From NCBI RefSeq assembly GCF_021390155.1, contig NZ_CP089985.1:434001-498000 (forward strand): DNA of 64,000 nucleotides, written 5' to 3'. Origin of the DNA: Pseudomonas sp. HN11. GTDB taxonomy: Bacteria; Pseudomonadota; Gammaproteobacteria; Pseudomonadales; Pseudomonadaceae. Shown here piece by piece: positions 9,757 to 27,539 of the stretch; position 1 is the first letter of the stretch, and every line of letters starts with the position of its first letter. Under the pieces are notes generated by a model, which searched no databases, was not told the origin of the DNA, and saw only the letters and a program-made list of their open reading frames with translations. Made by a program: the position numbers and the translations under genes.

Positions 9757-9913
9757 TTGCCGTAAAGTTGTTTTCAGGCATACTGCCCACGTTCCCGAAA
9801 GGGGCTTGTGAGACTCTGAGGATCCTGGGCAACCAGCAATTGCAGAGCCAGGCAGGAAGCGGCGATGACAAGCCAACCTGTTTGTGAAGAGGGCGCCGAA
9901 AGGCGCCCTTTGT
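9757..9913 (+). ncRNA. Candidate small RNA transcription unit
   Basis: No credible reading frame lies between the toxin-like gene and the lipoprotein gene. A promoter-like pair (TTGCCG at 9757-9762, CATACT at 9779-9784, 16-nt spacer) precedes about 100 nt of mixed sequence, which ends in a GC-rich hairpin with a short T-rich tail at 9890-9913. Transcription from about 9791 would give an RNA of about 120 nt. I do not recognise the family. The hairpin could instead simply terminate the toxin-like gene. Confidence 0.4.
9890..9913 (+). terminator. Hairpin terminator
   Basis: A perfect 7-bp stem GGGCGCC / GGCGCCC with a GAAA tetraloop, followed by TTTGTCGTTT on the plus strand. The minus strand has no T-run, so it terminates rightward transcription (toxin-like gene or candidate small RNA), not the lipoprotein gene. 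Confidence 0.75.
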
Positions 9914-9938: not shown

Positions 9939-10382
9939 TTACTTGGTGGTGCCGGTTTGCTCAAACAACTGCGCCGCCGTCCCCGCCTCATTCACGCCAT
10001 TGCTGCGCAACCCCGCCATGATGTCGCTATCCAGATTGTTCACCCAGCGGTTGTAGTTGCGATGGATCTTGCCGTCCTTGTAGCCAAGGTCGCGGCTGTC
10101 GCGGTAGGTGATGGCGTAGCTGTTGCGGGTGTAGCGGATGTCGATGGCTGCGTAGTACTGGTTGCGCACCGTGATCTCGGCCTGCACCAGTTGCGGGCTC
10201 AGGCGTTGTACTGTCCATTCGCGTTTTTGCAGGGCATTGACGATCACCGTTTTCATTTTTTCTTCGCTGACCTGGGCGTCTGCCGGCAGGTCGTGCTGGG
10301 TGTTGAGGATCGGCTTGCTGGTGCAGCCGGCGGTGACCAGCAGGGCAAGGGTGATCAGGGTGGCGCGTAGCAAGGAAGACAT
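9939..10382 (-). CDS. Small lipoprotein at the end of the aryl-polyene operon
   Basis: A 147-residue predicted lipoprotein. A signal peptide ends in the lipobox VTAGC with lipidated Cys20. The mature part is about 127 residues and soluble, with an alpha/beta pattern and a YKDGKIHRNYNRWVNNLDSDI segment. I know similar proteins only as uncharacterised pseudomonad lipoproteins. The ATG at 10382 has a GGAGAA site 6 nt upstream. It follows the last ketosynthase by 26 nt on the same strand and is probably cotranscribed, though it may be an independent envelope gene next to the cluster rather than a pathway component. Confidence 0.75.
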   Translation of the reverse strand: MSSLLRATLITLALLVTAGCTSKPILNTQHDLPADAQVSEEKMKTVIVNALQKREWTVQRLSPQLVQAEITVRNQYYAAIDIRYTRNSYAITYRDSRDLGYKDGKIHRNYNRWVNNLDSDIMAGLRSNGVNEAGTAAQLFEQTGTTK

Positions 10383-10408
10383 TCCGTATTCTCCAATCGA
10401 TTTAAAAG

Positions 10409-11635
10409 TCAGGACCAGCGGCGGAAGATCAGCGAGGTGTTGACGCCGCCAAAGGCAAAGTTGTTGTTCATCACGTAGTCGTGGTGCATCTCGCGGAACT
10501 CACCTTGCAGGTAATCCAGCTCGCCGCATTGCGGGTCGACGGAATCCAGGTTGAAGGTGTGCACGTACTGGCTGCGGTTCATCATCTCGATGCTGAACCA
10601 CGACTCCAACGCGCCGCATGCGCCCAGGGTGTGGCCGAGGAAACTCTTCTGCGAGCTGATGGGCATGCGGCTGCCGAACAGGCTGCTGGTGGCCAGCGTC
10701 TCGGCGATATCGCCCTGGTCGGTGGCCGTGCCATGACCGTTCACGTAGCCGATTGCGGAGGGTTCCAACCCGGCATCTTCCAGGGCCAGTTCCATCGCGC
10801 GGCGCATGGTTTTCTGTTCTGGGCGGGTGGTGTGCTGGCCGTCTGCGTTGCTGCCGAAGCCCACCAGCTCGGCGTGGATATGCGCACCGCGGGCCAATGC
10901 GTGCTCCAGTTCTTCGAGCACCAACATGCCACCGCCTTCGCCGATCACCAGGCCATCGCGGTTGCTGTCGTAGGGGCGTGGGCTGGTTTGCGGCGCATCG
11001 TTTTTCAGGCTGGTGGCGTAGAGTGCGTCGAACACCATGGCTTCGGTGGGGCACAGCTCTTCGGCGCCGCCGGCGAGCATCAAAGGCAGGCGGCCGAACT
11101 TGATCGCCTCATAGGCATAGCCGATGCCCTGGCTGCCGCTGGTGCAGGCGCTGGAGGTGGGGATCAGCCGCCCGGTGAGGCCAAAGAAGATGCTGATATT
11201 CGCCGCCGTGGTGTGCGGCATCATGCGCACGTAGGAGTTGGCGTTCAGCCCCTCCGCGACCGAGTTCAGCAGCATATTGCCGAACGCCTTGATCTCGTCG
11301 GTGCTGCCGGTGGACGAGCCGCAGGCCACGCCCATGCGCCCGTCTTTGATCGACTCGTCGCCAAGCAATCCGGCGTCCTGCAATGCCTGTTCCGCGGCCC
11401 ACACCGCGAGACGCGATACCCGGCCCATGCTGCGCAGTTGCTTGCGCGTCCAGTGCGAGGGCACGACAAAATCGTCAATCGGCCCGGCCAGGCGTGTGTT
11501 CAATTCGGTAAAGCGATCCCACTCATCCATGCGCCGGATGCCGCTGCGGTTGGCGCGGAAGTTGGCGGCGATGGTGTCCCAATCACTGCCCAGGGAGGTC
11601 ATGCCGGCCATGCCGGTGACGACGACGCGTTTCAT
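10409..11635 (-). CDS. Beta-ketoacyl-ACP synthase (FabF-like, APE KS)
   Basis: A 408-residue type II ketosynthase that would condense malonyl-ACP onto the growing aryl-polyene chain. All three catalytic residues are present: Cys164 in SSACTSGSQG, His301 in NGHGTATDQGD and His335 in SFLGHTLGA. It corresponds by position to the last ketosynthase of the E. coli ape cluster. The ATG at 11635 overlaps the stop of the ketoreductase gene (TGATG), so translation is coupled; an in-frame GTG at 11641 is a less likely start. This second active ketosynthase beside the one at 12818 may start or prime the chain; that split of roles is inference. Confidence 0.92.
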   Translation of the reverse strand: MKRVVVTGMAGMTSLGSDWDTIAANFRANRSGIRRMDEWDRFTELNTRLAGPIDDFVVPSHWTRKQLRSMGRVSRLAVWAAEQALQDAGLLGDESIKDGRMGVACGSSTGSTDEIKAFGNMLLNSVAEGLNANSYVRMMPHTTAANISIFFGLTGRLIPTSSACTSGSQGIGYAYEAIKFGRLPLMLAGGAEELCPTEAMVFDALYATSLKNDAPQTSPRPYDSNRDGLVIGEGGGMLVLEELEHALARGAHIHAELVGFGSNADGQHTTRPEQKTMRRAMELALEDAGLEPSAIGYVNGHGTATDQGDIAETLATSSLFGSRMPISSQKSFLGHTLGACGALESWFSIEMMNRSQYVHTFNLDSVDPQCGELDYLQGEFREMHHDYVMNNNFAFGGVNTSLIFRRWS

Positions 11636-12363
11636 CAGCACAGGCCTCCATTCACGGCCAGGACCTGGCGCGTGATGTAGCCCGCCTCGGCCGACATCAG
11701 GAAGTTCACCGCGCCGGCCACTTCTTCTGGCGTGCCCATGCGCTGCGCCGGGATCATCTTCATCAGTTCTTCCACCGGCACGTTTTCATCCAGCATCGCC
11801 GTGTCGATCAAGCCCGGGGCGACGCAATTGACGGTGATCTTGCGCTTGCCCAGCTCGATGGACAGGGCCTTCGCCGCGCCGATCAGGCCGGCTTTGGACG
11901 CGCTGTAATTGACCTGACCACGGTTGCCGATCAGCCCGGAAACCGAGGTAATGCACACAATACGCCCGGCTGCGCGACGACGAATCATCGGCATCATCAC
12001 CGGGTGCAGCACGTTGTAGAAACCATCGAGGTTGGTGCGCATCACCACGTCCCAATCGTCTTCCGACAGGGCCGGGAAGGCGCCGTCGCGGGTCAGGCCG
12101 GCGTTAAGTACCACGCCGTAATAGGCGCCATGGTGCTCGACATCCGCTTCCAGAATGTCCTTGCACGCCGCGCGATCCGCCACATCGAATTGCAGCACCC
12201 GCGCCTTGCGGCCCAAGGCTTCAACCTCGGCCTGCACCGCATCGGCTTCGGCACGACCGCTGCGGCAATGCAGTACGATGTCATGCCCGGCCTGGGCCAG
12301 GCGCAGCGCGATGGCGCGGCCGATGCCACGGCTGGAGCCGGTGACCAGTACAGATTCAGTCAT
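11635..12363 (-). CDS. 3-ketoacyl-ACP reductase (FabG-like, APE KR)
   Basis: A 242-residue short-chain dehydrogenase that would reduce the 3-ketoacyl-ACP intermediate with NADPH. The cofactor motif TGSSRGIG lies at residues 8-15 and NAG at 87-89. The catalytic set is Asn111, Ser140, Tyr153 and Lys157 (YSASK). The FabG-type C-terminus (VNCVAPGLIDTAM) is intact. It overlaps the dehydratase gene upstream by ATGA and the ketosynthase downstream by one base. This reductase, the ketosynthases and the dehydratases form the elongation cycle. Confidence 0.93.
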   Translation of the reverse strand: MTESVLVTGSSRGIGRAIALRLAQAGHDIVLHCRSGRAEADAVQAEVEALGRKARVLQFDVADRAACKDILEADVEHHGAYYGVVLNAGLTRDGAFPALSEDDWDVVMRTNLDGFYNVLHPVMMPMIRRRAAGRIVCITSVSGLIGNRGQVNYSASKAGLIGAAKALSIELGKRKITVNCVAPGLIDTAMLDENVPVEELMKMIPAQRMGTPEEVAGAVNFLMSAEAGYITRQVLAVNGGLC

Positions 12364-12821
12364 GGCGTTACGTCCTTCGATTCATCTAAATAGTTGGCCG
12401 CCTGAGGCGGTCGAAATACATTCAAGCGGGCGCTGGCCTGGATTCCGTCGCCGGTCAGGTGGCATTCGAACACACCCATGCCATTGTCGTCTTCCAGGGA
12501 GCGCAGGCCGTGGATCGCCAGCTCGGCGCCGGCCGGGAAGTATTCCACGTTGCACTCGAATTTACGTGTGCCGAGCAGGAAGCCCAATTCCACCGCTTCG
12601 CCTTTCTGACGCGCGTGGCAACCGGCGTAGGCGGCGACGCTTTGCGCCATCAGCTCTATCCCGACCCAGGCCGGCAGGCTACCGTCCGGGCGGTTGAACA
12701 GGCCGCCGGGTTTGACGGTCACGCGGGTGTGGATCTGCTCTTCATCGAATGACAGCACCTGGTCGATCAGGATCATGTCGCCCGCATGGGGCAGCAGTTC
12801 AGCGAGTGGCCAATCGATCAT
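12360..12821 (-). CDS. Hot-dog fold 3-hydroxyacyl-ACP dehydratase (ApeP-like)
   Basis: A 153-residue single hot-dog dehydratase that would remove water from the 3-hydroxyacyl-ACP to create each conjugated double bond. The candidate catalytic pair is His12 (LLPHAGDMILID) and Glu56 (GIELMAQS). It overlaps the upstream ketosynthase and the downstream reductase by ATGA on both sides. A second dehydratase domain in the cluster is fused to the adenylation protein at 22963-24633; in described APE systems two different dehydratases are also present. Confidence 0.88.
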   Translation of the reverse strand: MIDWPLAELLPHAGDMILIDQVLSFDEEQIHTRVTVKPGGLFNRPDGSLPAWVGIELMAQSVAAYAGCHARQKGEAVELGFLLGTRKFECNVEYFPAGAELAIHGLRSLEDDNGMGVFECHLTGDGIQASARLNVFRPPQAANYLDESKDVTP

Positions 12822-13984
12822 AGGGCCTCTCCGATAATCAGGCTGACGTTGTTGCCGCCGAAAGCAAACGAATTACTCATCAGGCAGCGCTTTCCTAGTG
12901 TTTCCGCGGCTTGCGCCCACTGCAAGGCGGGCAGGGCCGGATCGGCCTGGCCGTCCCACACGTGAGGCGGTACGCGGTTGTGAGCCAGGCTCAACCAGCA
13001 GAACGCCGCTTCCAGTGCCCCGGCTGCGCCCAGGGTATGACCGCTCATGGGTTTGGTCGACGAACAGGCCACGCCCTGCGGGAACAGGCTGGCGACGGCC
13101 AGGCTTTCCATGGCGTCATTATGCTGGGTGGCCGTGCCGTGCAGGTTCAGGTAGCCGATCTGCTCGGGTTGCAATCGGGCGCTGGCCAAGGCCTTGCGCA
13201 TCGACTGCAACGCGCCTTTGCCGGTGGGCTCGGGCGCGGAGATATGGTGTGCATCGCAACTGGCGCCGCTGCCCAGCAGGGCGATGGGCGCGGGTTCCTT
13301 GCTCATCAGAAACAGCACGGCCGCTTCGCCGATGTTGATGCCGTTGCGGTTAACCGAAAACGGATTGCAGCGTTCGTTTGACACGGCTTCCAATGAGCTG
13401 AAACCATTGAGGGTCAGTTTGCACAGGCTGTCGACGCCGCCGCAGATCACCGCATCGCACACGCCCAGGTCCAACAGGCGCTGGGCACTCATCAGGGCGC
13501 GGGCGCTGGAGGTGCAAGCGGTGGAGATCACATAGGCCGGGCCGCTCAGTTGCAACCAGTCGGCGAGGAAATTCGCCGGGGCGCTGAGTTCCTGCTGCTG
13601 GTAGTCGTAGTCGCCGGGAAACTGGTTTTCCCGCAAAAAGTGCGCGATGCCACGACTGGCTTCGTCGATGCCCGAGGTGCTGGTACCGAGCACAATGCCC
13701 ACCCGTGACGCGCCGTAGGTATGGATCGCCTGGCGAATATCGCCTTCGATCTGCAACGCCGCTTCCAGCAACAACTGATTATTGCGGCTGCTTTGCTGGC
13801 CCAGCTCGGCGGGAATGGTCGCCAGCTCACCGTGCACACCGGCCACCGGCAATACGCGCTCCGGCACCCAGCCGCTTTCGGCGCGCATGCCGGAGCAGTC
13901 ACCGGCAAACAGGCTGCGGCTGACTTCATCCTGGCCACGGCCGAGGGCGCAGATCACGCCCAGGGCGTTGAGGTAGGCGTTCAT
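12818..13984 (-). CDS. Beta-ketoacyl-ACP synthase (APE KS, ApeO-like)
   Basis: A 388-residue ketosynthase with the complete triad: Cys157 in STACTSSARA, His282 in NLHGTATQHND and His316 in PMSGHTLGAAGA. It is shorter than FabF and diverged at the N-terminus. In characterised aryl-polyene synthases the ketosynthase encoded at this position pairs with a Cys-less chain-length factor; here that partner is probably the protein at 26471-27190. The ATG at 13984 overlaps the stop of the preceding lipoprotein gene (ATGA). Confidence 0.92.
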   Translation of the reverse strand: MNAYLNALGVICALGRGQDEVSRSLFAGDCSGMRAESGWVPERVLPVAGVHGELATIPAELGQQSSRNNQLLLEAALQIEGDIRQAIHTYGASRVGIVLGTSTSGIDEASRGIAHFLRENQFPGDYDYQQQELSAPANFLADWLQLSGPAYVISTACTSSARALMSAQRLLDLGVCDAVICGGVDSLCKLTLNGFSSLEAVSNERCNPFSVNRNGINIGEAAVLFLMSKEPAPIALLGSGASCDAHHISAPEPTGKGALQSMRKALASARLQPEQIGYLNLHGTATQHNDAMESLAVASLFPQGVACSSTKPMSGHTLGAAGALEAAFCWLSLAHNRVPPHVWDGQADPALPALQWAQAAETLGKRCLMSNSFAFGGNNVSLIIGEAL

Positions 13985-14463
13985 CGGGCGGCTCCGAGCG
14001 GCGTGATGCGGTAGCTCAAGGGCTGGCCGGTCATGTTCACGCTGAAAACCTCGGACGATTGATACACGATCTGCCAATGCCCCGGCAGGGTGCGGGTCAG
14101 GTCCATGGCTTGGGCGCTGGGGTACAGCGCGCGCACGTCATCGGCCGAAGTCAGGGCAAACAGCAACGCGGCAAACAACTCGCGCGCCTGGGGATTGGGC
14201 GGCAGCAAGCCATCGGCCTGCCATTCGTCATCGATCAGTTTTTGTCGCGCCTGGGGAATGCCCAGCGGGTCCATCATCGACCAGCGAATGCCGCCGCTTT
14301 CGCGTTGGATTACCAGCAGCCAATCCTGGCTCTGGCCGTCGGCCAGGCGCTGCACATGCAGTTGCAGCGGCAAGGTCAGGGTTGGGGTTTTCTCGGGCAG
14401 CGGCGGCTGGCTGGCGCAGGCGCTCAGCAACAACAGGCAGCCGATCAACAACATGCGCATCAT
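13981..14463 (-). CDS. DUF3261 lipoprotein of APE clusters
   Basis: A 160-residue predicted lipoprotein. A short hydrophobic signal ends in the lipobox LLSAC with Cys16. The mature protein resembles DUF3261 proteins, which I know from aryl-polyene clusters, where they are thought to act in the envelope with the LolA-like protein and the MMPL exporter. The ATG at 14463 overlaps the methyltransferase stop (ATGATG), which fixes this start over longer upstream options. Role in product transport or anchoring is inferred from context. Confidence 0.82.
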   Translation of the reverse strand: MMRMLLIGCLLLLSACASQPPLPEKTPTLTLPLQLHVQRLADGQSQDWLLVIQRESGGIRWSMMDPLGIPQARQKLIDDEWQADGLLPPNPQARELFAALLFALTSADDVRALYPSAQAMDLTRTLPGHWQIVYQSSEVFSVNMTGQPLSYRITPLGAAR

Positions 14464-15194
14464 GGGGCAGCACTCGCCAAGGGTTTGCGTGCCACGCAAT
14501 TGACCAACGTTTCCTCGCGCTGGCCCACCGGCGGCGCCTTGCGCAGGCCCCAGCGTTCCAACAGGCCGAAATCGCTGGAGCGGCTCCACCACAAGTACGG
14601 GTACGAGACGTTCTGCGGACCGAATTCAAAGCCCTGCTCGCGGAGCATCTCCAGGTATTCTTCGGCGCTTTTCTGCACATGCATCGGGTGGCGGAACAGC
14701 CAGCGAATCACCCAGGTGTCGATATAGGCTTCGGTGGATTCGGCAAACAGCAGATAGCCGCCCGGCTTGAGCACGCGGTAGAACTCCTTGAGCGCGCGGT
14801 GCTGCTCGACCAGGTGGTGGAAGGTCTGGTGGCAGAACAGGATATCGACGCTGGCATCCGGTACTTGCAAGGTGGCGCAGTCGCTGCCGATCAGCTCGAT
14901 GGCCAAGCCTTGGCGCTTGGCTTCTTCACGGCTCAGTTCCAGGCTGTGCGGGTCGGCATCCAGGCCGATCAGGCGCTTGGGGGCGAAGACCTGCTGCAGG
15001 TATTGGAACGACTTGCCCTGGCCGCAACCGGCGTCCAGCAGTACCGGGGCCTCGGGCAGCGGATCGGTAAACAGGCTGCGCAGGTCGTTGATCGCCACGC
15101 GTAGCACATGGTGTTGCCAGGTGTGGCTGCGCAGGAACCAGAAGCCGAACCTGGTTTCTTCGACGTAGTTTTTACTCAGGTACTGACTACTCAT
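14460..15194 (-). CDS. SAM-dependent methyltransferase (class I)
   Basis: A 244-residue Rossmann-fold methyltransferase. Motif I, VLLDAGCGQG, is at residues 51-60, followed by the acidic LIGLDAD strand and a motif IV region SVDILFCHQTFHH. It probably methylates the aryl head group or a hydroxyl of the polyene, as methyltransferases in other APE clusters do. O- or C-methylation cannot be told from sequence. It overlaps the FAD enzyme gene upstream and the DUF3261 gene downstream by 4 nt each. Confidence 0.88.
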   Translation of the reverse strand: MSSQYLSKNYVEETRFGFWFLRSHTWQHHVLRVAINDLRSLFTDPLPEAPVLLDAGCGQGKSFQYLQQVFAPKRLIGLDADPHSLELSREEAKRQGLAIELIGSDCATLQVPDASVDILFCHQTFHHLVEQHRALKEFYRVLKPGGYLLFAESTEAYIDTWVIRWLFRHPMHVQKSAEEYLEMLREQGFEFGPQNVSYPYLWWSRSSDFGLLERWGLRKAPPVGQREETLVNCVARKPLASAAP

Positions 15195-16438
15195 ACCGGC
15201 TCACTCGCACAAATCTCCGACAGCATCCGCAGGCGCCGCTTGGGCTCGCTGACAAACGGATTGCGCTCGTCCCACGCGTAACCGGCGAGGATCGAACTGA
15301 TCATCCGGCGAATATCCGGCGAGCTGCCTGGATGGAAGATCACGTCCTGGAAAGTCCCGGCGTACCAGCCTTCGACGTAGCAGCGGAACGTATCGACACC
15401 GCGCTTCAAGGGCTCGGCAAATTCGGTTTGCCAGTCCACGGTTTCGCCCTTGAGCTGACGATGCAACACACCGGCCGCCATGCTGGCCGAGCGCATGGCG
15501 ATGGTCACCCCGGAGGAGAATACCGGATCGAGGAATTCCGCCGCGTTGCCCAGCAGCGCAAAACCTGGCCCGTGCAGGGTTTTGACGTTGGCCGCGTAGC
15601 CGCCGAGGGTGCGCGCCGGCGTATCCCACACGGCGTGTTGCAGCACGCCGGCAAGGCTCGGGGTTTCGGCGATAAAGCCGCGCAGGCAGGCATCGAGGTC
15701 CCCATCGCGGCCGTCGAAATGCTCCTTGGCCGCGACCACGCCCACCGAGCAACGCCCGTTGCTGAACGGGATGGTCCAGAACCAGATGTCACGCTTCGTC
15801 GGATGTGTGGTTACCAGAATCTTGGCGCGGTCGAAGCCAGGGTGTTCGATGCGGTCTTCGACATGGGTGAACACGGCTTGGCGCACGGGAAAGTCAGACG
15901 GCAGGTCCAGGTCCAGCAGGCGCGGCAACACGCGGCCATAGCCGCTGGCGTCGAGCACGAACTTGGCCTTGAGGTGGTACTCGCTGCCGTTCTCACGACG
16001 CACATGCAGGTAACGGGATTCGCCCTTGAAATCCACGCCGACGATGGTTTCGCCATAGCGGATGTCCACGCCTTGCAGCGCGGCTTGATCAGCCAGCAAT
16101 TTGTCGAATTCGCCGCGCTGCACCTGGAAGGTGGTCGGCTTGCCGTTGCTGAAGGTGTCACTGAAATCAAACGCGCTGTAGCGCTCGCCCCAGGCGAACG
16201 CGGCGCCGGTTTTCACCTGGAACCCTGCGGCCTGCACCGCGTCGAGCATGCCGGCTTCTTCGATGAAGTCGATGCAGTGGGACAGCAGGCTTTCGCCGAT
16301 CGAGAAGCGTGGGAAATGCTGGCGCTCGATGATCAATACATCATGCCCTTTGCGCTTTAACAGCGCGGCGGCGATGGCCCCGGACGGACCGGCACCGATC
16401 ACCACCACCTGGCGACGTTCCATTTCAACTGTGGGCAC
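15191..16438 (-). CDS. FAD-dependent oxidoreductase with flavin-halogenase signatures
   Basis: A flavoprotein of about 415 residues. Numbered from the internal ATG at 16423, it has the FAD motif GAGPSG at 10-15, FPRFSIGESLL at 37-47 (typical of tryptophan-halogenase-like enzymes), a Lys at 71 in the position of the halogenase active-site lysine (FQVKTGAAFAW), and the WFWTIP motif at 214-219 matching the WxWxIP signature. This supports chlorination, bromination or a related oxidation of the aryl head. Related geranylgeranyl-reductase-like oxidoreductases share some features, so halogenation is not certain. The GTG at 16438 has an AGGAG site 5 nt upstream; ATG at 16423 or 16456 are alternatives. 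Confidence 0.82.
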   Translation of the reverse strand: MPTVEMERRQVVVIGAGPSGAIAAALLKRKGHDVLIIERQHFPRFSIGESLLSHCIDFIEEAGMLDAVQAAGFQVKTGAAFAWGERYSAFDFSDTFSNGKPTTFQVQRGEFDKLLADQAALQGVDIRYGETIVGVDFKGESRYLHVRRENGSEYHLKAKFVLDASGYGRVLPRLLDLDLPSDFPVRQAVFTHVEDRIEHPGFDRAKILVTTHPTKRDIWFWTIPFSNGRCSVGVVAAKEHFDGRDGDLDACLRGFIAETPSLAGVLQHAVWDTPARTLGGYAANVKTLHGPGFALLGNAAEFLDPVFSSGVTIAMRSASMAAGVLHRQLKGETVDWQTEFAEPLKRGVDTFRCYVEGWYAGTFQDVIFHPGSSPDIRRMISSILAGYAWDERNPFVSEPKRRLRMLSEICASEPV

Positions 16439-16471
16439 GAGGGCTCCTTGCCGCATTGGCGATAATCACAT

Positions 16472-18784: not shown

Positions 18785-19364
18785 AGTCGTGCTGCTCCGC
18801 TTCGCTCAGGGGTTGGCTGGCAATGCTGTCCTGCATGCGCAAAACGGTGCTGTCGCCTTGGGTTTCCAGCAGTTCGATGGTCTGCACCAAGTCGCCGCCG
18901 TCGATGTTGATCTGGGTGAAAACCTGTTTGAGCAACAGTGAGCGCGGGATCAGCGTGAGCTTCCATTGCTTCGCCTCGCCTTGCAGCTGCAATTGGAAGT
19001 CACGCTGCAAGCCGCTGCTGTCGCCCTGGAGTACGGCCAGGAACAGGCGATTCTGCTCGGCCCCGGCGCTCTTGTTCGGCAGCAGTTGCCAGCCGTTGGC
19101 GTCGCGGCGGGCGATGCCCTGGGCGCTGATGCGATAGTCCTGTTGCAGTGGGGTTTTCAGCAGCCATAGCAAACCGTGGTCTTTCGCCAGCACAAAGGTG
19201 CCCTTGCTGACCAAGGGCTGGGGCAGGGCACGCAGGTGTTTTTCCTGGGTGAAGCTGCCGTGGATCACGCTGGGTTTGGCCAACTGCTCGCTGAGCTGTT
19301 GCAGATCGAAGGCGTGGGCTTGCAGCGACAGCAGCAGCGCACCCAGAAAGGTGATCCATTTCAT
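18774..19364 (-). CDS. LolA-like periplasmic lipid carrier
   Basis: A 196-residue secreted protein. The signal peptide ends at AHA (residue 18), and the mature protein resembles the LolA fold found in APE and related clusters (SFTQEKHLRALPQPLVSKGTF, then a beta-rich body). It is not the housekeeping LolA, which lies elsewhere in Pseudomonas. It probably accepts the product at the periplasmic side of the MMPL exporter and passes it to the outer membrane. It overlaps the thioesterase gene by 4 nt and the MMPL gene by 11 nt. Confidence 0.85.
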   Translation of the reverse strand: MKWITFLGALLLSLQAHAFDLQQLSEQLAKPSVIHGSFTQEKHLRALPQPLVSKGTFVLAKDHGLLWLLKTPLQQDYRISAQGIARRDANGWQLLPNKSAGAEQNRLFLAVLQGDSSGLQRDFQLQLQGEAKQWKLTLIPRSLLLKQVFTQINIDGGDLVQTIELLETQGDSTVLRMQDSIASQPLSEAEQHDFAQ

Positions 19365-19786
19365 GACAGGGCCTTTTCGACGGCGTCGGTGAATACTGTG
19401 GGGGAGGCCAACTGCATCTCGCGGCTGGCGATTTCCACCGCCACTTGCACGGTGCTGGCGCGGGTCAGACGCTCGCCGCTGGCCAGGTCAGTGATCAGGT
19501 AATTGACCTTCAAACGGTTCTCCCACTCCACCAGGCTGGCGCGCACGTTGAGGGTCTGGCCGAACACCGCGCCGCGTACGTAACGCAGCTGCATGTCGAT
19601 CACCGGCCAGGCGTAGCCCGACTCGAGCATCGCCGTGTAGTTGTGCCCGATCTTGTCCAGCAACGCGCAGCGCGCCACTTCCAGGTACTTCACGTAATGC
19701 CCGTGCCACACTACGTTCATGGTGTCGACGTCAAAAAAAGGCACGAGGATTTCAGTGTCGCAATGCAGTACGCCGGCGCTACGCAT
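19361..19786 (-). CDS. Acyl-CoA/ACP thioesterase (4HBT hot-dog family)
   Basis: A 141-residue hot-dog thioesterase with the 4HBT-type start FFDVDTMNVVWHGHYVKYLE; Asp19 or Asp21 is the candidate catalytic acid. It would hydrolyse a thioester, either to release the product or to clear misprimed carrier protein. The ATG at 19786 overlaps the end of the ammonia-lyase gene by 8 nt. The reading frame continues upstream, but that part is a shadow of the lyase gene. Confidence 0.87.
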   Translation of the reverse strand: MRSAGVLHCDTEILVPFFDVDTMNVVWHGHYVKYLEVARCALLDKIGHNYTAMLESGYAWPVIDMQLRYVRGAVFGQTLNVRASLVEWENRLKVNYLITDLASGERLTRASTVQVAVEIASREMQLASPTVFTDAVEKALS

Positions 19787-21320
19787 GCAGCCTCCAGTGT
19801 TGCTCGGCAATGCGTTGCAGGCACAGGCGCAGCTCGCCTTCCAGGGCGCGGTCTTCGATAACCGGTGGGAAGTCTTTGGCGAGTTCTTCGTGCATCGCCG
19901 CCAATGCAGGCGGCAACGGCCGCGCATCCTCGGCCTGGGCCCGCAGCCACACGCCCTGATTGGCGGCGAGTAGCGTGGCGGCGGCAACCTGTTCGGTCAG
20001 TTCCAGCACGCGGATCGCATCGCGGGCGGCGATGGTGCCCATGCTTACCTTGTCCTGGTTGTGGCATTCGGTGGAGCGCGAAAACACGCTGGCCGGCATG
20101 GTGTTTTTCAAGGCTTCGGCGGTCCAGGCGCTAGTGCCGATCTGCACGGCCTTGAAGCCATGGTTGATCATCGCGCGGTCAGCCGGCGCGCCGGACAGGT
20201 TGCTCGGCAGGCCGTGGTTGTAACGCACGTCCACCAGCAACGCGAGTTGGCGGTCGAGCAGGTCGGCGACGTTGGCCACCAGGGTCTTGAGGCTGTCCAT
20301 GGCAAAGGCGATATGCCCGCCGTAGAAGTGCCCACCGTGCAGCACGCGTTCTTCTTCGGCGTCGATGATCGGGTTGTCATTGGCGCTGTTCAGCTCAATC
20401 TCGATGAACGAGCGCAGCCAGTTCAGACTGTCGGCCAATACGCCGAGCACGTGGGGCGCGCAACGCAGCGAGTAACGGTCTTGTAGGCGATGCAGCGGCG
20501 CAGTCGGCGCATCGATGGCCAAGTCCTTGCGCAGCCAGGAGGCCACCTGCATCTGCCCTGGGTGCGGCTTGGCGGCGAACAGGCGTTCGTCGAAGTGTTC
20601 CGGGTTGCCTTGCAGCGCCACCACGTTCAGCGCGGTGATGCGCGTGGCCAGTTGCAGCAGGTAGTCGGCGCGGGCGAAGGCCAGGCAGGCCAGGCCGGTC
20701 ATCACGGCGGTGCCGTTCATCAGCGCCAGGGCCTCCTTGGGGCGCAGGACTAGCGGATCCCAGCCCAACTCAAGGTGCACATCGGCCGCCAGGCGACGTT
20801 CGCCACGCAACAGCACTTCACGCTCGCCGGACAAGGTCGCGGCCACATAGGACAATGGCGTCAGGTCACCGCTGGCGCCCACCGAGCCTTCTTCGGGGAT
20901 CAGCGGCAGGACGTCATGCTCAAGGAACGCGTGCAGTCGTTCCAACAACTCCACGCGCACGCCGGAGACCCCGTGGCACAGCGACTGCAAGCGCGCCGCC
21001 AGCACGGCGCGGGTAGCCTGGGCGTCGAGCAGCTTGCCCAGGCCGCAACCGTGGAAGGTGTACAAGTGACGCGGCAGGGCTTCGACGTGCTGCAACGGCA
21101 CCGCCACTACGCACGAGTCGCCGTAACCGGTGGTCACGCCGTAGATCACGCCTTCCTTGTCCAGCAGCGAGTCGAGGAACTGCGCGCCCTTGGCAATACG
21201 CTGGCGGTACGCGGCATCGCCCTGCAGCTGGGTTGGCGTCTGACGGTTGGCCAGGGCCAGCACGTCTTCGATGCGCAAAGCGCGTTCGCCAAAGGTTACC
21301 GGCTCAAGATGCGTCGTCAT
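19779..21320 (-). CDS. HAL/PAL/TAL-family aromatic amino acid ammonia-lyase
   Basis: A 513-residue MIO-type ammonia-lyase. The Ala149-Ser150-Gly151 triplet in GSVGASGDLTPLS cyclises to the MIO cofactor, and the active-site loop YGVTTGYG starts at Tyr60. At the substrate-selectivity position it has FHGCG with His90, different from the SH motif of housekeeping histidase. It probably deaminates tyrosine (or another aromatic amino acid) to p-coumarate, the aryl starter loaded by the adenylation enzyme; this is inferred from the setting, not shown. The E. coli ape cluster lacks such a lyase, while flexirubin-type clusters contain one. No hut genes adjoin it, which argues against histidine catabolism. 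It overlaps the upstream acyltransferase by 17 nt. Confidence 0.9.
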   Translation of the reverse strand: MTTHLEPVTFGERALRIEDVLALANRQTPTQLQGDAAYRQRIAKGAQFLDSLLDKEGVIYGVTTGYGDSCVVAVPLQHVEALPRHLYTFHGCGLGKLLDAQATRAVLAARLQSLCHGVSGVRVELLERLHAFLEHDVLPLIPEEGSVGASGDLTPLSYVAATLSGEREVLLRGERRLAADVHLELGWDPLVLRPKEALALMNGTAVMTGLACLAFARADYLLQLATRITALNVVALQGNPEHFDERLFAAKPHPGQMQVASWLRKDLAIDAPTAPLHRLQDRYSLRCAPHVLGVLADSLNWLRSFIEIELNSANDNPIIDAEEERVLHGGHFYGGHIAFAMDSLKTLVANVADLLDRQLALLVDVRYNHGLPSNLSGAPADRAMINHGFKAVQIGTSAWTAEALKNTMPASVFSRSTECHNQDKVSMGTIAARDAIRVLELTEQVAAATLLAANQGVWLRAQAEDARPLPPALAAMHEELAKDFPPVIEDRALEGELRLCLQRIAEQHWRLHA

Positions 21321-22239
21321 CGGTCTTCCAGAAAGGGTAAAAGTTGAACCATTGTTGGGGCGCTTCCAGGCAGAACTGGCCCAGGCGTGCGGCGTAGCGT
21401 GCGGTCCACAGGGCTATGACCTGCTCGCGGGTGTTGCGTTTCCATTCGATCTGCGGCGTGAAGGGCTCAATGGTCAGGCGATAGCGGCTGTTGTGCTTGA
21501 GGCACATCAGCAGGTTCACCGGGCATTTGAGCAAACCGGCCAGCAGCCACGGGCCTTGGGGGAAGGCGGCGTCATGGCCGAGAAAGTCCACGCGCACCGT
21601 GCGCCCGCCGTGCAGCGGCACGCGGTCGCCGGCAATCGCCAGCCACTCGCCGTCGTCCAGGCGCTGGCTGAGCAGCAGCATGGTGGCCGGGTCCAGCTCG
21701 CTGACCTGGATCAGGCGCAAATGGGTCGCCCCGGCTTCGCCCAGCAGGCGATTGAATTGCTCAGCGTGCTTGGTGTGGACCAGCACGTTCATGGTGACTT
21801 GCTCGCCAATCTCGGCGAGCGCGCGGCACACTTCGAGGTTGCCCAGGTGTGCGCCCACCAGCATCTGTCCGCGCTCGCCACGCAGTTGCCCGCGCAATTG
21901 CGCCGGGTCGTTGATCTCGATCTGTTCCAGGCGCAGCTTGCCGTTCCACACGTCGAGTTTGTCGAGCAGCGAGTCGGCAAAGGCCATGAACTGGCCGAAG
22001 ACTTTCCGGTGAGTGGGGCGAAGGTCCTCGCGCCCGCTCCAGTCGGCCAGGCGCTGTTGGTATTGCCAGGCGCTGTGGCGCGCGGTGCGACCGAACAGGA
22101 AGAAGTACAGCACGATGCCGTACAGCACCGGGCTCAACACGCGCCGGCCGAGGACCTTGGCGGCGAATGCCGTGAGTTTCATCAGCCAGTAGCTGCCGCG
22201 TTCCTCGCGGTCTGCCCAGTGTTTGCTGCTGTCACTCAT
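21304..22239 (-). CDS. LpxL/HtrB-like lipid acyltransferase
   Basis: A 311-residue protein of the lipid A lauroyl/myristoyl acyltransferase family, with the catalytic HX4E motif at His131-Glu136 (HLGNLE), the block GDRVPLHGGRTVRV and an N-terminal hydrophobic segment at about 35-50. It probably transfers an acyl chain, perhaps the aryl-polyene acyl group itself, to a glycolipid acceptor at the inner membrane. The ATG at 22239 overlaps the glycosyltransferase stop (ATGA), excluding the long upstream extension of the frame. In E. coli a glycosyltransferase and an acyltransferase are fused in one APE protein; here they are adjacent, separate genes. Confidence 0.87.
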   Translation of the reverse strand: MSDSSKHWADREERGSYWLMKLTAFAAKVLGRRVLSPVLYGIVLYFFLFGRTARHSAWQYQQRLADWSGREDLRPTHRKVFGQFMAFADSLLDKLDVWNGKLRLEQIEINDPAQLRGQLRGERGQMLVGAHLGNLEVCRALAEIGEQVTMNVLVHTKHAEQFNRLLGEAGATHLRLIQVSELDPATMLLLSQRLDDGEWLAIAGDRVPLHGGRTVRVDFLGHDAAFPQGPWLLAGLLKCPVNLLMCLKHNSRYRLTIEPFTPQIEWKRNTREQVIALWTARYAARLGQFCLEAPQQWFNFYPFWKTDDDAS

Positions 22240-22970
22240 GCCTGCCACCGTCGCCACAGGATCATTGGCGCCCGCACCAGCATGCCGAAGAACAACCGGG
22301 TGTGCATGGCCGAGATGCGTACGTTGTCGCGGAACAGGCGAAAGTGCGAAAGGCCGTCGGTGGGGTAATGCACCTGGGTGGGCAGCCAGCGCATCGGCTG
22401 GTTGCGCCAGGCCAGGCGTACCAGGATGTCCGAGTCGAAGTCCATGCGCGTGCCGATGTAGGCCGAGTCCATCAGTGCCAGCACTGGCGCCAGCGGGTAC
22501 ACACGAAAGCCGCACATCGAGTCGCGGATCTGCAGCGACAAGGTGTTGATCCACACCCACATGTGGGTCAGGTAGCGCGCGTACAGACGGCCTTTGGGCA
22601 CGCTGTCGTCGTATTCGGGGTAGCCGCAGATAATGGCGTCGGGGTGTCGGCGCGAGGTGTCGAGGAAAGTCTCGACTTCGCGCAGGTCGTGCTGGCCATC
22701 GGCGTCGACTTGCAGGGCGTGGCTGAAGCCCAGGCGGGCGGCTTCGCGGAAGCCGGCCATCACTGCACCGCCCTTGCCCTGGTTGGTGGGCAAGGTCAGC
22801 AGGGTGACGTTTTCCAGGCTCGCCAGTTGTACCAATACCGCCGCGCAGGCCGGGCTGCTGCCGTCATCCACCAGCAGGCATGGCAGGCCACTGTTCAACA
22901 GGCTGCGGACCACGGCGGGCACGGCGGCTTCGTGGTTGTAGACCGGGATCAGGGCGCAGGGGTTATGCAT
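22236..22970 (-). CDS. Glycosyltransferase family 2
   Basis: A 244-residue GT-A glycosyltransferase. It opens with CALIPVYNHE, carries VDDGSS near residue 34 and the metal-binding DxD at Asp89-Asp91 (DADGQHD). Its similarity to polyprenyl-phosphate/dolichol-type GT2 proteins suggests sugar transfer to a lipid acceptor, giving the headgroup on which the polyene is mounted. The ATG at 22970 overlaps the preceding stop by 8 nt. Donor and acceptor cannot be named from sequence. Confidence 0.88.
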   Translation of the reverse strand: MHNPCALIPVYNHEAAVPAVVRSLLNSGLPCLLVDDGSSPACAAVLVQLASLENVTLLTLPTNQGKGGAVMAGFREAARLGFSHALQVDADGQHDLREVETFLDTSRRHPDAIICGYPEYDDSVPKGRLYARYLTHMWVWINTLSLQIRDSMCGFRVYPLAPVLALMDSAYIGTRMDFDSDILVRLAWRNQPMRWLPTQVHYPTDGLSHFRLFRDNVRISAMHTRLFFGMLVRAPMILWRRWQA

Positions 22971-24633
22971 CGACGGTCTCCAGCAAAATCCGTCCGCTGG
23001 AACAGGCCGCAGCACCATTGCGATAGGCGAAATACAACTTGCTGCGTTCCGCATCAAACCGCAGATGCAGTTCGATCACATCGCCTGGCCGCACCAGTTG
23101 CTGGAACTTGAGCACTTCCATCCCGGCAAAGGTTACCGGCAAATCGAGCAGTTGCTGGCCCAGATTGAAGGCCCATTCCACCTGCACCACGCCGGGCAGC
23201 ACCGGGGTGACGGGGAAGTGGCCGCTGAAGTAGGCCAGGTCCGGCGGGACGCTCAGTTGCAGGGTCCATTCACCATTGGCTTTGACCTGCTCCAGTACAT
23301 CCGGGGCTTTCGGTCGTGCTGCCAACAAGAGCGCCTCGACGTGTACCTGGGGCAGTTTGCCTTGGCTGTTCAGGGGCAACTGTTTCAGCAACCGCCATCG
23401 ACGTGGCAGCGCCAGGGCTTCGCAATGTTGGCTCAGATGCTGGCGCAGGGTCTGGGTGAGCGTGCGTCGCCCCTGGTTGCGCAAGGCATGCAGCCCCTCG
23501 GCGCTCAGCACCACCAGCGCGCCGAGTGACGCGCGGTTTTCCTGCACCACGCCCAGGCGGGTTTCCGCGACCCAGGGGTGGTCCATCAATGCGTGCTCCA
23601 GCATGGGCAGGGAGATGCGTTTTTCTTCCAGCTTGACGATGCGATCCAGGCGGCCGAGCAGCTCGAAACGGCCATCGGCATGGATGCGTGCCGCGTCGGC
23701 GGTTTGCTCGACATGCCCCTCAGGCAGGTAAGGCGAGGCGATGCGCAGGGCGCCGTCGGCATCCTGGCTCAGTTGCACGTCGGCAAACGGCTGCCACGGC
23801 TGTGCGCCTTGGCGCCAGGCAATGCCACCGGTTTCCGAGCTGCCGAGGATCTCGGTCGGCCATTGTTGCAAGCGGTCGTACAGGCTGCCGGCGGCTTCTA
23901 CGGGCAGCGCGCCGCCAGATGAAAATACCCGCGACACCTGGCTCAGCGCCGGCCAGTCAAGGTTGTCGCCCATGCGCTTGAGCAGCGCCGGGCTGGCGAC
24001 CCAAGCAAAGTGCGCGTGCTCGCGGCTGGCGCGCTGCATGTCTTCGGGGAAGGCCAGTTGTTTGCGCACAAAGGTGCGGCCGGCGCACAGCGGCCAAAGC
24101 ACGCGGAACAACAAGCCGTAGATATGCTGGGTGGCGACGCTGCCAATGATGCAGGCGTCTTTAAGGCCAGGACCCCACAGGGTTTCCAGGGCCTCGACTT
24201 CGTTGGCCAGTTGGCGCAGGTTTTTGTCGATGCGCTTGGGTTCGCCGCTGGAGCCGGAGGTGCACAGGCTCAATTGGCAAGCGTCGAGGTCGAGTGCTGC
24301 AGCGCTCAGTGGCGCCTCGTACAGCGCGTCCAGGTCCGCCGCTTCGGTCAGCCAGGCATCGACGGCCTCATCCCAGCGTTGGCGGGTCTGAGGTTGCAAA
24401 TCGGCGGGCAGCAGCACGCTGACCCCGGCCCGCCACGCGCCCAGCAGGGCAATCGCCAGTAGGCCGGCGTCTTCCAGGTACACGGCCAGGCGCCGGATAC
24501 CGCGCGCTTGCAGGCCTGCGGCCAGGCTCAGGGACTGCGCCCATAATTGGGCATGATTCATTGCAGGTTCGGTGGTGACCGCACGCTGTTCCAGCGGCTC
24601 AAGCAGCACATGCTCAAGTTTCAACCCATTCAT
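22963..24633 (-). CDS. Adenylation (AMP-binding) enzyme fused to hot-dog dehydratase
   Basis: A 556-residue two-domain protein. Residues 1-440 form an acyl/aryl adenylation domain with the phosphate-binding loop [11 protein letters not shown] (123-133), SSETGG (265-270), [14 protein letters not shown] (327-340) and catalytic Lys426 (NSQGKLP). Residues about 445-556 form a FabZ/ApeI-type hot-dog domain with [14 protein letters not shown] (His472) and Glu486. It would activate the aromatic acid for loading onto an ACP and supply one dehydration activity. In the E. coli ape cluster these are two proteins. No stop or frameshift lies between the domains. The ATG at 24633 overlaps the upstream stop (ATGA). 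Confidence 0.88.
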
Positions 24634-25175
24634 ACGCGGCCTCGAACCCTTTGTCGTACCAGCCATTCCACGGCAAACAACAGCCCCATCAGCCCGTAGG
24701 CGATCAGGCCGTTGTACAACGTCCACCAGCTCAGCGGCGCCCACAACGTGAGGGCGGCGGCGAGCAGGCCATTACACAGAAAAAACACGCTCCACACCAC
24801 GGTGACCTGGCGGGTATACACGATGGCATGCGGCGCCAGCACCGGGTCGGTCATGCGCGCCAGGCGCTCGACCATCGGTGGGCCGTATTTGAGGCTCAGG
24901 CCGAACAGCGCCAGCATGAACGCGCTGACCAGGCTCGGGTACCACCGCAGCAGACGGGGGTTGTCGAACCAGGCCAGCAACAGGCAGAACACGATCACCG
25001 CCAGCGCCATCCAGCGGCTGCCGGGGCGACGCGCACCGGTCAGCGCGCGCAGCAGCCACAGGCTGCCGAGCAGCAGGCCGAATTGCCACGGAGCAAAATG
25101 TTCGGTGCCGTAATACACCGCAAAGGGGTACAGCAGCCCCGCCAACAACAGGCCAAGGCCGATCAGCCGGCTCAT
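24630..25175 (-). CDS. COG4648 integral membrane protein
   Basis: A 181-residue membrane protein with about five or six hydrophobic segments (roughly 5-22, 28-45, 55-68, 80-95, 125-145, 150-172). It matches the small COG4648-type membrane protein I know from this position of APE clusters. Its function is unknown; the setting suggests a role in membrane organisation or export of the product. It overlaps the ACP gene upstream and the adenylation gene downstream by 4 nt each. Confidence 0.8.
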   Translation of the reverse strand: MSRLIGLGLLLAGLLYPFAVYYGTEHFAPWQFGLLLGSLWLLRALTGARRPGSRWMALAVIVFCLLLAWFDNPRLLRWYPSLVSAFMLALFGLSLKYGPPMVERLARMTDPVLAPHAIVYTRQVTVVWSVFFLCNGLLAAALTLWAPLSWWTLYNGLIAYGLMGLLFAVEWLVRQRVRGRV

Positions 25176-25426
25176 GCGGCAGGCGTGACCAGACGGTACA
25201 CCGCCTCAACCACGTCGTTCACGGTGCGCACGGCCTTGAATTCTTCGGCGGCGATCTTCTTGCCGGTCTGGCGCTTGATATGGTCGATCAAGTCGACGGC
25301 GTCGATGCTGTCGATTTCCAGGTCCTGGTACAGGTTGGCGTCAAGGGTGACGCGTTCCGGCGGCAGTTCAAACAGTTCCACCAAGGCGTCGCGCAAGGTG
25401 TTGAAAATATCGTCACGAGTTTGCAT
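25172..25426 (-). CDS. Acyl carrier protein (second ACP of the operon)
   Basis: An 84-residue acyl carrier protein. The 4'-phosphopantetheine attachment serine is Ser40 in LEIDSIDAVDLI. It has the four-helix ACP pattern and an acidic middle. It would carry the starter or growing chain during type II polyene synthesis. It lies 9 nt after the first ACP and overlaps the COG4648 gene. Two ACPs are usual for APE systems. Confidence 0.93.
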   Translation of the reverse strand: MQTRDDIFNTLRDALVELFELPPERVTLDANLYQDLEIDSIDAVDLIDHIKRQTGKKIAAEEFKAVRTVNDVVEAVYRLVTPAA

Positions 25427-25435
25427 GGTCCGGTC

Positions 25436-25705
25436 TCAAGCTGCCTGTCTGGCCGTGACGAACGCCGCAAGGCTGGCCACGTTGGTGAAGTGATTGCGGG
25501 TGTCCTTGGCGTCGGCATCGATCTTGATGCCGTACTTTTTCTGGATCGCCAGGCCCAATTCCAGGGCGTCTACCGAATCCAGGCCGAGGCCTTCGCCGAA
25601 CAGGGTTTGCTCGCTGCCGATGTCGTCGACGCTGATGTCTTCCAGGCCCAGAGCCTCGATGATCAGCGTTTTTATGTCGTGCTCAAGGCGGTGTTGGTCG
25701 CTCAT
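25436..25705 (-). CDS. Acyl carrier protein (first ACP of the operon)
   Basis: An 89-residue acyl carrier protein with the phosphopantetheine site Ser44 in GLGLDSVDALEL. It diverges from the second ACP outside the DS motif, so the two probably have different partners, for example one for priming and one for elongation; this is inference. It overlaps the 3' end of the PlsC-like gene by 23 nt, an unusually long overlap. Confidence 0.93.
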   Translation of the reverse strand: MSDQHRLEHDIKTLIIEALGLEDISVDDIGSEQTLFGEGLGLDSVDALELGLAIQKKYGIKIDADAKDTRNHFTNVASLAAFVTARQAA

Positions 25706-26495
25706 CTTCGGCGAGCTCCTTAATAAAATAGTGATGCAGGTAATCGTTGAGCTTGCGTGAGGCCTGGGGCGCGGGGCCCAATGTTGCGAACGCCTGTGGT
25801 TCTATATCGGCACCCACCCGCAAACTGAAGTGCACGCGGCATTTTGGGATGCGATACCAGGGTTCGGCCTTGGTCAGCGTCGTAGGGCTGACCTTGATCA
25901 CCACGGGGGTGATGATTGTCGCACCGCGCAGCGCAATGGCGGCGCCGCCGCGATGAAAGGCAGGCGCCGCGCCGGGTGTGGTGCGGGTGCCTTCGGGAAA
26001 GATGATCAGGGTCTGGCCGGTGCGCAGGGCGTCAGCCGCCGCATCGAGCATTTCGGCACTGCCATCGTTGCTGATATAGCCAGCGTCGCGCACCGGTCCA
26101 CGGGTGAAGGGGTTCTGCCACAGGCTCTGCTTGACCACGCAGTTGGCCTGGCGAACCAGGCCGATCAGGAACACCACGTCGATCAACGACGGGTGGTTGG
26201 CGATGATCATCTGGCCCGGGCGGCCGAGTTTTTCCGCGCCTTCGACGCTGTAGGTGAGCACGCCGGCGCGTTGCATCAGGCGAATAAAGAACCAGAACAG
26301 CCAACTGATGGTGTGGCGGGCGCGGCTGCGGTGTTTTGCAGCGTTACCTGGCAGGCAACTGAGCAGCGGGAACACCAGCAAACGCAGGCACAACCCACCG
26401 AAGCCGAACAGTGCGAAGCTGGCGGCGGTGGCGAACAGGCGCCAGTAGTAGGCGTCCCGTGGTTTTTCGTTCAGGGCTTGCGTTGCCAGTTCCAT
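25683..26495 (-). CDS. PlsC-like 1-acyl-glycerol-3-phosphate-type acyltransferase
   Basis: A 270-residue membrane-associated acyltransferase. The catalytic NHX4D motif is at His101-Asp106 (NHPSLID) and the acceptor-phosphate motif FPEGTRT is near residues 166-172. An N-terminal hydrophobic segment lies at about 22-50. It probably acylates the lipid or sugar-lipid part of the product, complementing the LpxL-like enzyme. It overlaps the chain-length factor gene by 25 nt; the ATG at 26495 is favoured because the longer frame runs antisense to nothing functional. Confidence 0.88.
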   Translation of the reverse strand: MELATQALNEKPRDAYYWRLFATAASFALFGFGGLCLRLLVFPLLSCLPGNAAKHRSRARHTISWLFWFFIRLMQRAGVLTYSVEGAEKLGRPGQMIIANHPSLIDVVFLIGLVRQANCVVKQSLWQNPFTRGPVRDAGYISNDGSAEMLDAAADALRTGQTLIIFPEGTRTTPGAAPAFHRGGAAIALRGATIITPVVIKVSPTTLTKAEPWYRIPKCRVHFSLRVGADIEPQAFATLGPAPQASRKLNDYLHHYFIKELAEDERPTPP

Positions 26496-27190
26496 ACACG
26501 GTTCTTCCAGGCATGTTGGCAGGCGACCTGTTCGGTGAGCAGGGTGCGCAGCAGGTTCAGGGCGTGAGGCCACCGGGTTTGAGTGAGTTGGACAGTGTCG
26601 CTGTTCAGTTCCAGTTGCCACTCGTCGCCCGGTGTCAGCAGCAGGCCGAGGGCGTAAGGGAAGGGCACATCGCGAATCCAGCGGGTGTAGGCTTCGGGCG
26701 GCTGTTCTTCGGTAATCACCAGCAAAACGGCCGGCGCGCCCTCGTTGAGCAGGGTGGCGGCTTCTAGCACGCCGTGTTCCAGGCCGTCGCCAGTGGCAGC
26801 AAGCGCGGTCATTTCGCTGGTTTCATTGCGCAGGATCGACCACAGGCCAATCACTGCGTTGTGCACCGACAGGCTGAACTGAGTCGGCGACAGCGGCTGG
26901 TCGTTGGCCAGGTCACTGAGGATGTCGAGGGTGCGCGGGGTTTCGCCATGCCGGGAAACGAACACCAGCGGCAGGTCCTGCAAGCCCTCGGCCAGTGGCC
27001 AGCCCACGCTGAAGGCCATGCGCGCCAGGCGGCTCAAGCGGCGGCGTTGCATGGCTGGCAGAAACGAGACATCAGGGGCGGCTTCGCTTGCAGGCAGCAA
27101 TACCGGGGCCTGGCACCAGGCGTGCCAGTCGTCCACGCTATCGAGCCCTGGGGCCCAGGCGCGCCATTGGGCGATGTTGAAAGTGATCAC
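26471..27190 (-). CDS. Ketosynthase-like chain-length factor (ApeC-like)
   Basis: A 239-residue protein resembling the truncated beta-ketoacyl synthase-like family at the head of APE operons. The position of the catalytic Cys is occupied by His110-Asn111 (SLSVHNAVIG), and the second thiolase half is missing, so it cannot condense by itself. Such proteins pair with an active ketosynthase and set chain length; the likely partner is the ketosynthase at 12818-13984. It is the first gene of the leftward operon. The start is GTG at 27190 without a clear Shine-Dalgarno, and a small CCCGC/GCGGG hairpin (27202-27215) lies in its leader. Confidence 0.85.
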   Translation of the reverse strand: MITFNIAQWRAWAPGLDSVDDWHAWCQAPVLLPASEAAPDVSFLPAMQRRRLSRLARMAFSVGWPLAEGLQDLPLVFVSRHGETPRTLDILSDLANDQPLSPTQFSLSVHNAVIGLWSILRNETSEMTALAATGDGLEHGVLEAATLLNEGAPAVLLVITEEQPPEAYTRWIRDVPFPYALGLLLTPGDEWQLELNSDTVQLTQTRWPHALNLLRTLLTEQVACQHAWKNRVWNWQRKP

Positions 27191-27539
27191 TGAGAAGGTA
27201 TCCCGCCCCTGCGGGCTTCCATGTGTGGCTTTTGGCCCCGAATACCGGGACAGGGAACAATAGCCGAATGGCGCGCATTATCCCGGTGCCGTGGGGTTCT
27301 AGCAAACTTTGGTAAAGATTTGCGCACGGTTGATTACAAAATAGTGGAAAGGATTTACAGATTGTCCTTTACCAGGGAACTGATTGGATTGTCGGACCGT
27401 TCTTTTTAATCTGTCGGTTGCGTATGACAGACCGGGCGCCGATCGTATTGCGATGCAGTAGTGCATGGATGAACGAGGTAGCTAACAGGCGCTTTTGCCC
27501 TCTACACTCGGACATTCATTGATACACGGAGGTTTTTCC
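27191..27539. promoter_or_regulatory. Divergent promoter region, APE operon / parA
   Basis: This 349-nt gap separates the leftward APE operon from the rightward parA gene. The middle (about 27310-27420) is clearly more AT-rich than its surroundings and must hold the promoters for both. I could not identify a specific regulator site or a convincing sigma54, Fur or Anr motif. No tRNA or reading frame of interest is present. Confidence 0.5.

Follow-up and report, generated by a model that had tools for sequence, protein, structure and literature searches.

A tightly packed operon at positions 9939-27190 (- strand) of the window is very probably an aryl-polyene (APE) operon, complete and of the type found in Pseudomonas; by "the window" we mean the 64,000-nucleotide stretch analyzed here, i.e. 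positions 434001-498000 of the 6.27-Mb single-contig genome of Pseudomonas sp. HN11. This assignment is based on gene content and gene order, on the packing of the operon, on catalytic motifs, and on conservation. An earlier note, made from the sequence of this DNA, had described about 20 leftward genes for a type II polyene synthase with transport functions, and this is borne out by 20 intact leftward open reading frames (ORFs), for which Pfam confirms the gene types named. The same note singled out the combination of an ammonia-lyase and a halogenase-like flavoenzyme; that this combination is special is not supported, since it is the usual form of the cluster in the genus.

Gene content and organization

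Pfam analysis of the 20 proteins yields the complete set of aryl-polyene functions: a ketosynthase with a chain-length factor, a second ketosynthase, a ketoreductase, two dehydratases, two acyl carrier proteins (ACPs), an AMP ligase, an acyltransferase, a glycosyltransferase, a LolA-like carrier and an MMPL exporter occur together. The catalytic motifs present comprise Cys-His-His in both ketosynthases, the serine of both ACPs, the dehydratase histidines, and the DAGCGQG motif that binds S-adenosylmethionine (SAM). The 19 gene junctions range from -25 to +26 bases, with overlaps at 16 of them. The first ORF calls were overlong in seven genes, whose starts were trimmed to fit the neighbouring genes; the resulting coordinates are given below in the order of transcription, together with identities to proteins of Escherichia coli CFT073.

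26471..27190, - strand: ApeC-like chain-length factor (Ketoacyl-synt_2, PF13723, 4.7e-79), first gene, GTG start; 32% to CFT073
25683..26495, - strand: ApeD-like lysophospholipid (PlsC-type) acyltransferase (PF01553); 37% to CFT073
25436..25705, - strand: ApeE-like acyl carrier protein (PF00550), DSV serine
25172..25426, - strand: ApeF-like acyl carrier protein (PF00550), DSI serine
24630..25175, - strand: ApeG-like membrane protein; 43% to CFT073; weak IspA match below cut-off
22963..24633, - strand: fusion of ApeH (AMP ligase, PF00501) and ApeI (dehydratase, PF22818) in one ORF
22236..22970, - strand: glycosyltransferase half of ApeJ as a separate gene (PF00535, GT2); 56% to CFT073
21304..22239, - strand: acyltransferase half of ApeJ (lipid-A-type) as a separate gene (PF03279); 35% to CFT073
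19779..21320, - strand: aromatic amino acid ammonia-lyase, predicted tyrosine ammonia-lyase (PF00221, 8.3e-158); Ala-Ser-Gly of the prosthetic group, Phe89-His90, Gln422
19361..19786, - strand: ApeK-like 4HBT thioesterase (PF13279); 46% to CFT073
18774..19364, - strand: ApeL, LolA-like carrier (PF03548, PF19574); NCBIfam LolA2_flexi 60.9 bits, cut-off 125
16472..18784, - strand: ApeM, MMPL/RND exporter (PF03176); 29% to CFT073
15191..16456, - strand: flavin adenine dinucleotide (FAD) enzyme of a halogenase-like family, the flavoenzyme (PF04820, 3.6e-25); Lys82, WxWxIP at 225-230, FSSG; matches PDB 3nix and halogenases
14460..15194, - strand: SAM-dependent class I methyltransferase (PF08241, 1.1e-26)
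13981..14463, - strand: small lipoprotein at the ApeN (DUF3261, LolB-like) position; lipobox LSAC
12818..13984, - strand: ApeO-like ketosynthase (Pfam), Cys-His-His motifs; CFT073 match
12360..12821, - strand: ApeP-like dehydratase (PF22817, 7.4e-21)
11635..12363, - strand: ApeQ-like ketoreductase (FabG2; PF13561; TIGR01831 above cut-off)
10409..11641, - strand: ApeR-like ketosynthase (Pfam; NF006587 above cut-off)
9939..10382, - strand: ApeA-like small lipoprotein; 34% tblastn match at the CFT073 apeA position

The ape cluster of CFT073 was taken from its annotated record and compared with the window proteins by tblastn. Counterparts exist for 16 of the 20 proteins and the order from apeC to apeR is collinear, as the earlier note had supposed; ApeH and ApeI, however, are separate proteins in CFT073 and fused in the window, while ApeJ is fused in CFT073 and divided over two genes in the window. 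The four proteins without a match in the CFT073 cluster are the lyase, the flavoenzyme, the methyltransferase, and the small lipoprotein at the ApeN position. The lyase gene is inserted between J and K, whereas the CFT073 cluster has no annotated lyase; in the window, flavoenzyme and methyltransferase genes separate M from N, and CFT073 is without a flavoenzyme. Pfam recognizes lyase and flavoenzyme, the two additions named in the earlier note, as Lyase_aromatic and as a Trp_halogenase-like FAD protein. CFT073 carries its methyltransferase gene apeB at the operon head, where the window has none; the methyltransferase of the window is not ApeB and is without a tblastn counterpart in that cluster. 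The ApeN-position lipoprotein likewise lacks a tblastn match, yet has a lipobox and occupies the same place. The ApeA-like lipoprotein follows apeR at the tail, in contrast to its position at the cluster head in CFT073; it is matched in 30 of the 80 named loci treated below, some of which end before its place. Neither of the two small lipoproteins obtained a Pfam or NCBIfam match of weight.

Distribution of the gene combination and operon surroundings

For the genus, 79 of 80 requested Pseudomonas genomes were searched at E-values of up to 1e-120 (lyase), 1e-40 (flavoenzyme) and 1e-30 (methyltransferase), and the counts represent presence in the genome. An ApeP-like cluster marker occurs in 61 of the 79 genomes, and the lyase in exactly those 61. 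Within this set, flavoenzyme and methyltransferase are each present in 57 genomes, and all together in 53; the genomes without the flavoenzyme (G208, G231, G242, G243) are not those without the methyltransferase (G188, G220, G225, G232). A flavoenzyme gene split over two frames, a sign of gene decay or of a sequencing error, was seen in G205 (C11:94026-95281) and in L037 (2368-3596). The methyltransferase match is interrupted by one TGA in six genomes (G191, G196, G211, G237, G247, G259).

Adjacency was assessed in 80 named loci, all from Pseudomonas and the best 80 of at least 569 confirmed stretches; they were recruited by the flavoenzyme and hence are uninformative on clusters that lack it. 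Within 10-kb flanks of the flavoenzyme gene, a lyase is found in 76 of the 80 loci and a methyltransferase in 69; contig ends truncate the four loci in which no lyase is present, and these measure 3.9 to 12.7 kb. The nearest named protein matches of the window belong to Pseudomonas, many of them to species that we take to be members of the P. fluorescens group. A gene for an additional predicted membrane protein (L064:8872-10029), with no Pfam or NCBIfam match, has counterparts in 59 of the 80 named loci (L043-L122) and is absent from the window and the other 21; in L058, L063 and L064 it sits between the MMPL and flavoenzyme genes. An antiporter-like gene is reported for the Azoarcus cluster (PMC3949708).

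A class-wide draw of 200 requested genomes, 184 of which were searched, gave an ApeP-like match in 21; 16 lay above the cut-off, and the five below it were excluded. At least five of the 16 carry lyase and flavoenzyme together in the cluster (the window, L028, L031, L032, L036); apart from the window, this makes at least four genomes out of 15. L035 has a cluster lyase, but its flavoprotein is only 33% identical and lies on the opposite strand. Four genomes (L029, L034, L037, L039) possess the flavoenzyme without a cluster lyase, a HutH-like lyase (30%) at the far end of L037 being left out of the count; one (L030) possesses the lyase without the flavoenzyme; and five (L033, L038, L040, L041, L042) have neither. 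Among the latter, L033 and L042 are entire short contigs, L038 stops at a contig end, and L041 and L042 have counterparts of just 7 and 8 of the 20 operon proteins. The idea that the pair is special to strain HN11 was thus rejected: according to the genus and class counts, Pseudomonas clusters normally have this combination, which occurs in other families, too.

APE clusters of the genus have been published, and we compared them by description. The cluster of P. donghuensis SVBP6 contains type II polyketide synthase (PKS) genes, an ammonia-lyase and an acyltransferase, and the APE-Vf cluster of Vibrio fischeri is reported to have an ammonia-lyase in common with it (PMC5851621). Clusters from the Pseudomonas strains of a potato study comprise PKS genes with homologs such as ammonia-lyase and acyltransferase (PMC8719888). 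Aryl polyenes form the largest cluster family of Pseudomonas type strains, with 58 clusters (PMC8942027), and an APE cluster was found in every studied strain of P. corrugata and P. mediterranea (PMC4528175). Pseudomonas APE clusters with an ammonia-lyase have therefore been published before, and the operon of the window is mostly ordinary for its genus. Unlike the window, these descriptions, in their accessible parts, mention no flavoenzyme. Likewise, no paper was found that describes the pair of lyase and flavoenzyme in an aryl-polyene cluster, in a search that left most subscription papers outside.

The operon is flanked by a divergent gene for a ParA-like ATPase (27495-28310, + strand) upstream and by a gene for a LysR-type regulator (8364-9257, + strand) past its tail. 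Two candidate signals were noted:

27277..27305, - strand: promoter-like pair (9 of 12) upstream of the operon, from the promoter scan
9888..9911, + strand: G+C-rich hairpin of 10 pairs just beyond the last gene, from the terminator scan

Promoter-like sites in the region are no commoner than chance (2 found, 3.1 expected), and terminator-like sites number 19 against 15.7 expected. The T tail of the hairpin is recorded on the + strand only, which makes the hairpin doubtful as a terminator of the leftward operon. A search of Rfam gave no match.

Proposed pathway and probable role of the ammonia-lyase

We propose that the lyase would convert tyrosine to 4-coumarate, which the ligase part of the ApeH-ApeI fusion would load onto an ACP. 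ApeO and ApeC (with ApeR), the ketoreductase and the two dehydratases would then extend this starter to a conjugated polyene. The methyltransferase may methylate the head, and the flavoenzyme may oxidize or halogenate the aryl head, either bound to the ACP or in the finished product. Thioesterase and acyl- and glycosyltransferases would attach the polyene to a lipid, to be carried to the outer membrane by the MMPL exporter, LolA and the lipoprotein at the ApeN position. The predicted product should be a yellow membrane pigment. This model draws on the joint occurrence of lyase and marker, on the proximity of lyase and flavoenzyme genes in the named loci, on Gln422 of the lyase, on the best model of the ligase (4-coumarate-CoA ligase), and on the fold of the flavoenzyme, which is near 3nix, ChlB4, PltA and Mpy16.

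The main substrate of the lyase is quite probably tyrosine. The enzyme possesses the Ala-Ser-Gly that forms the 4-methylideneimidazole-5-one group (GSVGASGDL from residue 145). At motif 2, Gln422 is shared by all 120 listed homologs and by 6 of 6 cluster lyases from other genomes, whereas three hutH-type control rows have Glu; Gln is the state of tyrosine and phenylalanine ammonia-lyases (TAL, PAL), Glu that of histidine ammonia-lyases (HAL) (PMC3992019). Two hutH-type lyase genes adjoin each other elsewhere in the genome (C1:377675-380592), which leaves the cluster lyase free for another job. Both the replaced Glu and these existing copies speak against histidine as the substrate; the lyase would thus resemble the non-histidine lyases, with tyrosine as the likeliest substrate.

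Several observations qualify this reading. Motif 1 reads Phe89-His90, in 120 of 120 listed homologs and in five of the six other cluster lyases (the sixth has Tyr-His), instead of the His that TALs have at the first position; Phe is the PAL state (PMC3992019), so that motif 1 argues against an ordinary TAL and phenylalanine is possible as a substrate. The proven flexirubin TAL FlxA, with its HAL-like motif 1, deviates from the TAL state as well (PMC3992019). In the hutH-type controls motif 1 is Ser-His, with its His in the same alignment column as His90. No NCBIfam model passes its cut-off for the lyase: the best one, the BagA/FevW TAL, reaches 410 bits (cut-off 1000), FlxA 309 (cut-off 700), and the HutH model TIGR01225 378 (cut-off 539). 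The ligase stays below as well, with 98.1 bits against 334.7 for the 4-coumarate-CoA ligase model; with both enzymes under the curated cut-offs, their substrates are what we infer. Moreover, the predicted starter of E. coli is 4-hydroxybenzoate, which is also an in-vitro substrate of Xenorhabdus ApeH (PMC8253772), and the E. coli cluster has no annotated lyase; the lyase could accordingly be a side supply. An alternative model gives the lyase a preference for phenylalanine or histidine, or takes the starter from another source; the starter would then be cinnamate or, as in E. coli, 4-hydroxybenzoate. This model can draw on Phe89, on His90 and on the four genomes of the class draw with the flavoenzyme and no cluster lyase. 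We regard it as improbable, given the points against histidine and the company of lyase and marker in 61 of 61 Pseudomonas genomes, which favours a role within the pathway.

Tyrosine as the origin of the starter has a parallel in flexirubin, where a tyrosine ammonia-lyase and a 4-coumarate ligase start the polyene of Chitinophaga pinensis (PMC3992019); the predicted start of the window pathway looks alike, apart from the FlxA score given above. Genes for dialkylresorcinol formation (darA/darB) were not recognized among the 20 operon genes, to which this search was confined. The xanthomonadin and arcuflavin clusters share with the window a gene annotated as halogenase, a glycosyltransferase, LolA and an exporter (PMC3949708, PMC3691225), but obtain their starter from the chorismatase XanB2/ArcB and not from a lyase. 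A xanthomonadin cluster was ruled out for the window, as Pfam detects no XanB2-type chorismatase domain in the 20 genes.

The halogenase-like flavoenzyme and the predicted head group

The flavoenzyme has kept the halogenase lysine (Lys82) and WxWxIP (225-230), and these motifs are invariant among its homologs. Both are generally read as halogenase-specific. The fold is nearest to 3nix (44-46% identity), followed by the halogenases ChlB4, PltA, Mpy16 and Bmp2, and hydroxylase folds score below the halogenase folds. The FADH2-dependent halogenases PltA, Mpy16, ChlB4, Bmp2, CndH, CmlS and FasV resemble it in fold, lysine and WxWxIP, yet are only 24-31% identical; 3nix, the closest solved protein, comes from structural genomics as a flavoprotein/dehydrogenase for which no reaction is stated. 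While the broad Pfam cut-off (PF04820) is passed, none of the 25 NCBIfam models listed reaches its own: the CmlS equivalog, a curated halogenase model, gives 156.6 bits (cut-off 900), the QhpG monooxygenase 124.3 (cut-off 240), and the geranylgeranyl reductase family 127 (cut-off 158.8), which is the nearest to its cut-off among the best three.

Two interpretations follow. The flavoenzyme may be a genuine FADH2-dependent halogenase whose substrate is either the aryl starter on its ACP or the polyene head, so that the pigment would be chlorinated or brominated. Fold and motifs are in line with this interpretation, to which we give a serious but somewhat doubtful chance, in view of the silent 3nix, the curated cut-offs that are not reached, and the absence of the gene from 4 of the 61 Pseudomonas clusters. 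A further objection comes from Azoarcus, likened here by annotation: its pigment arcuflavin, C41H52O4, contains no halogen, even though the cluster has a gene annotated as halogenase (PMC3949708). Reading halogenation from the gene name was rejected. For the second interpretation the chances are about even: the enzyme would act on the head or polyene as a hydroxylase, monooxygenase, reductase or dehydrogenase and would have retained halogenase-like motifs. The three NCBIfam scores and the unhalogenated arcuflavin fit such an enzyme; the invariant halogenase-type motifs and the lower scores of hydroxylase folds do not.

The head group envisaged in the earlier note was tyrosine-derived, methylated and possibly halogenated. 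From the predicted enzymes, derivation from tyrosine and methylation are likely; halogenation by the flavoenzyme is possible, with the halogen-free Azoarcus pigment as a published point against it. The most far-reaching proposal, that the flavoenzyme is an ACP-dependent halogenase and that most aryl-polyene-bearing Pseudomonas (57 of 61) make an unnoticed halogenated, tyrosine-derived aryl polyene, with the lyases forming a clade that has its own Phe-His pair, is tentative and in our estimate rather unlikely. Should the flavoenzyme be shown to halogenate, a halogenated membrane pigment would become a trait of an entire genus, and 3nix would acquire a new family of halogenases as neighbours; otherwise, a frequent overinterpretation of the annotation would be put aside.

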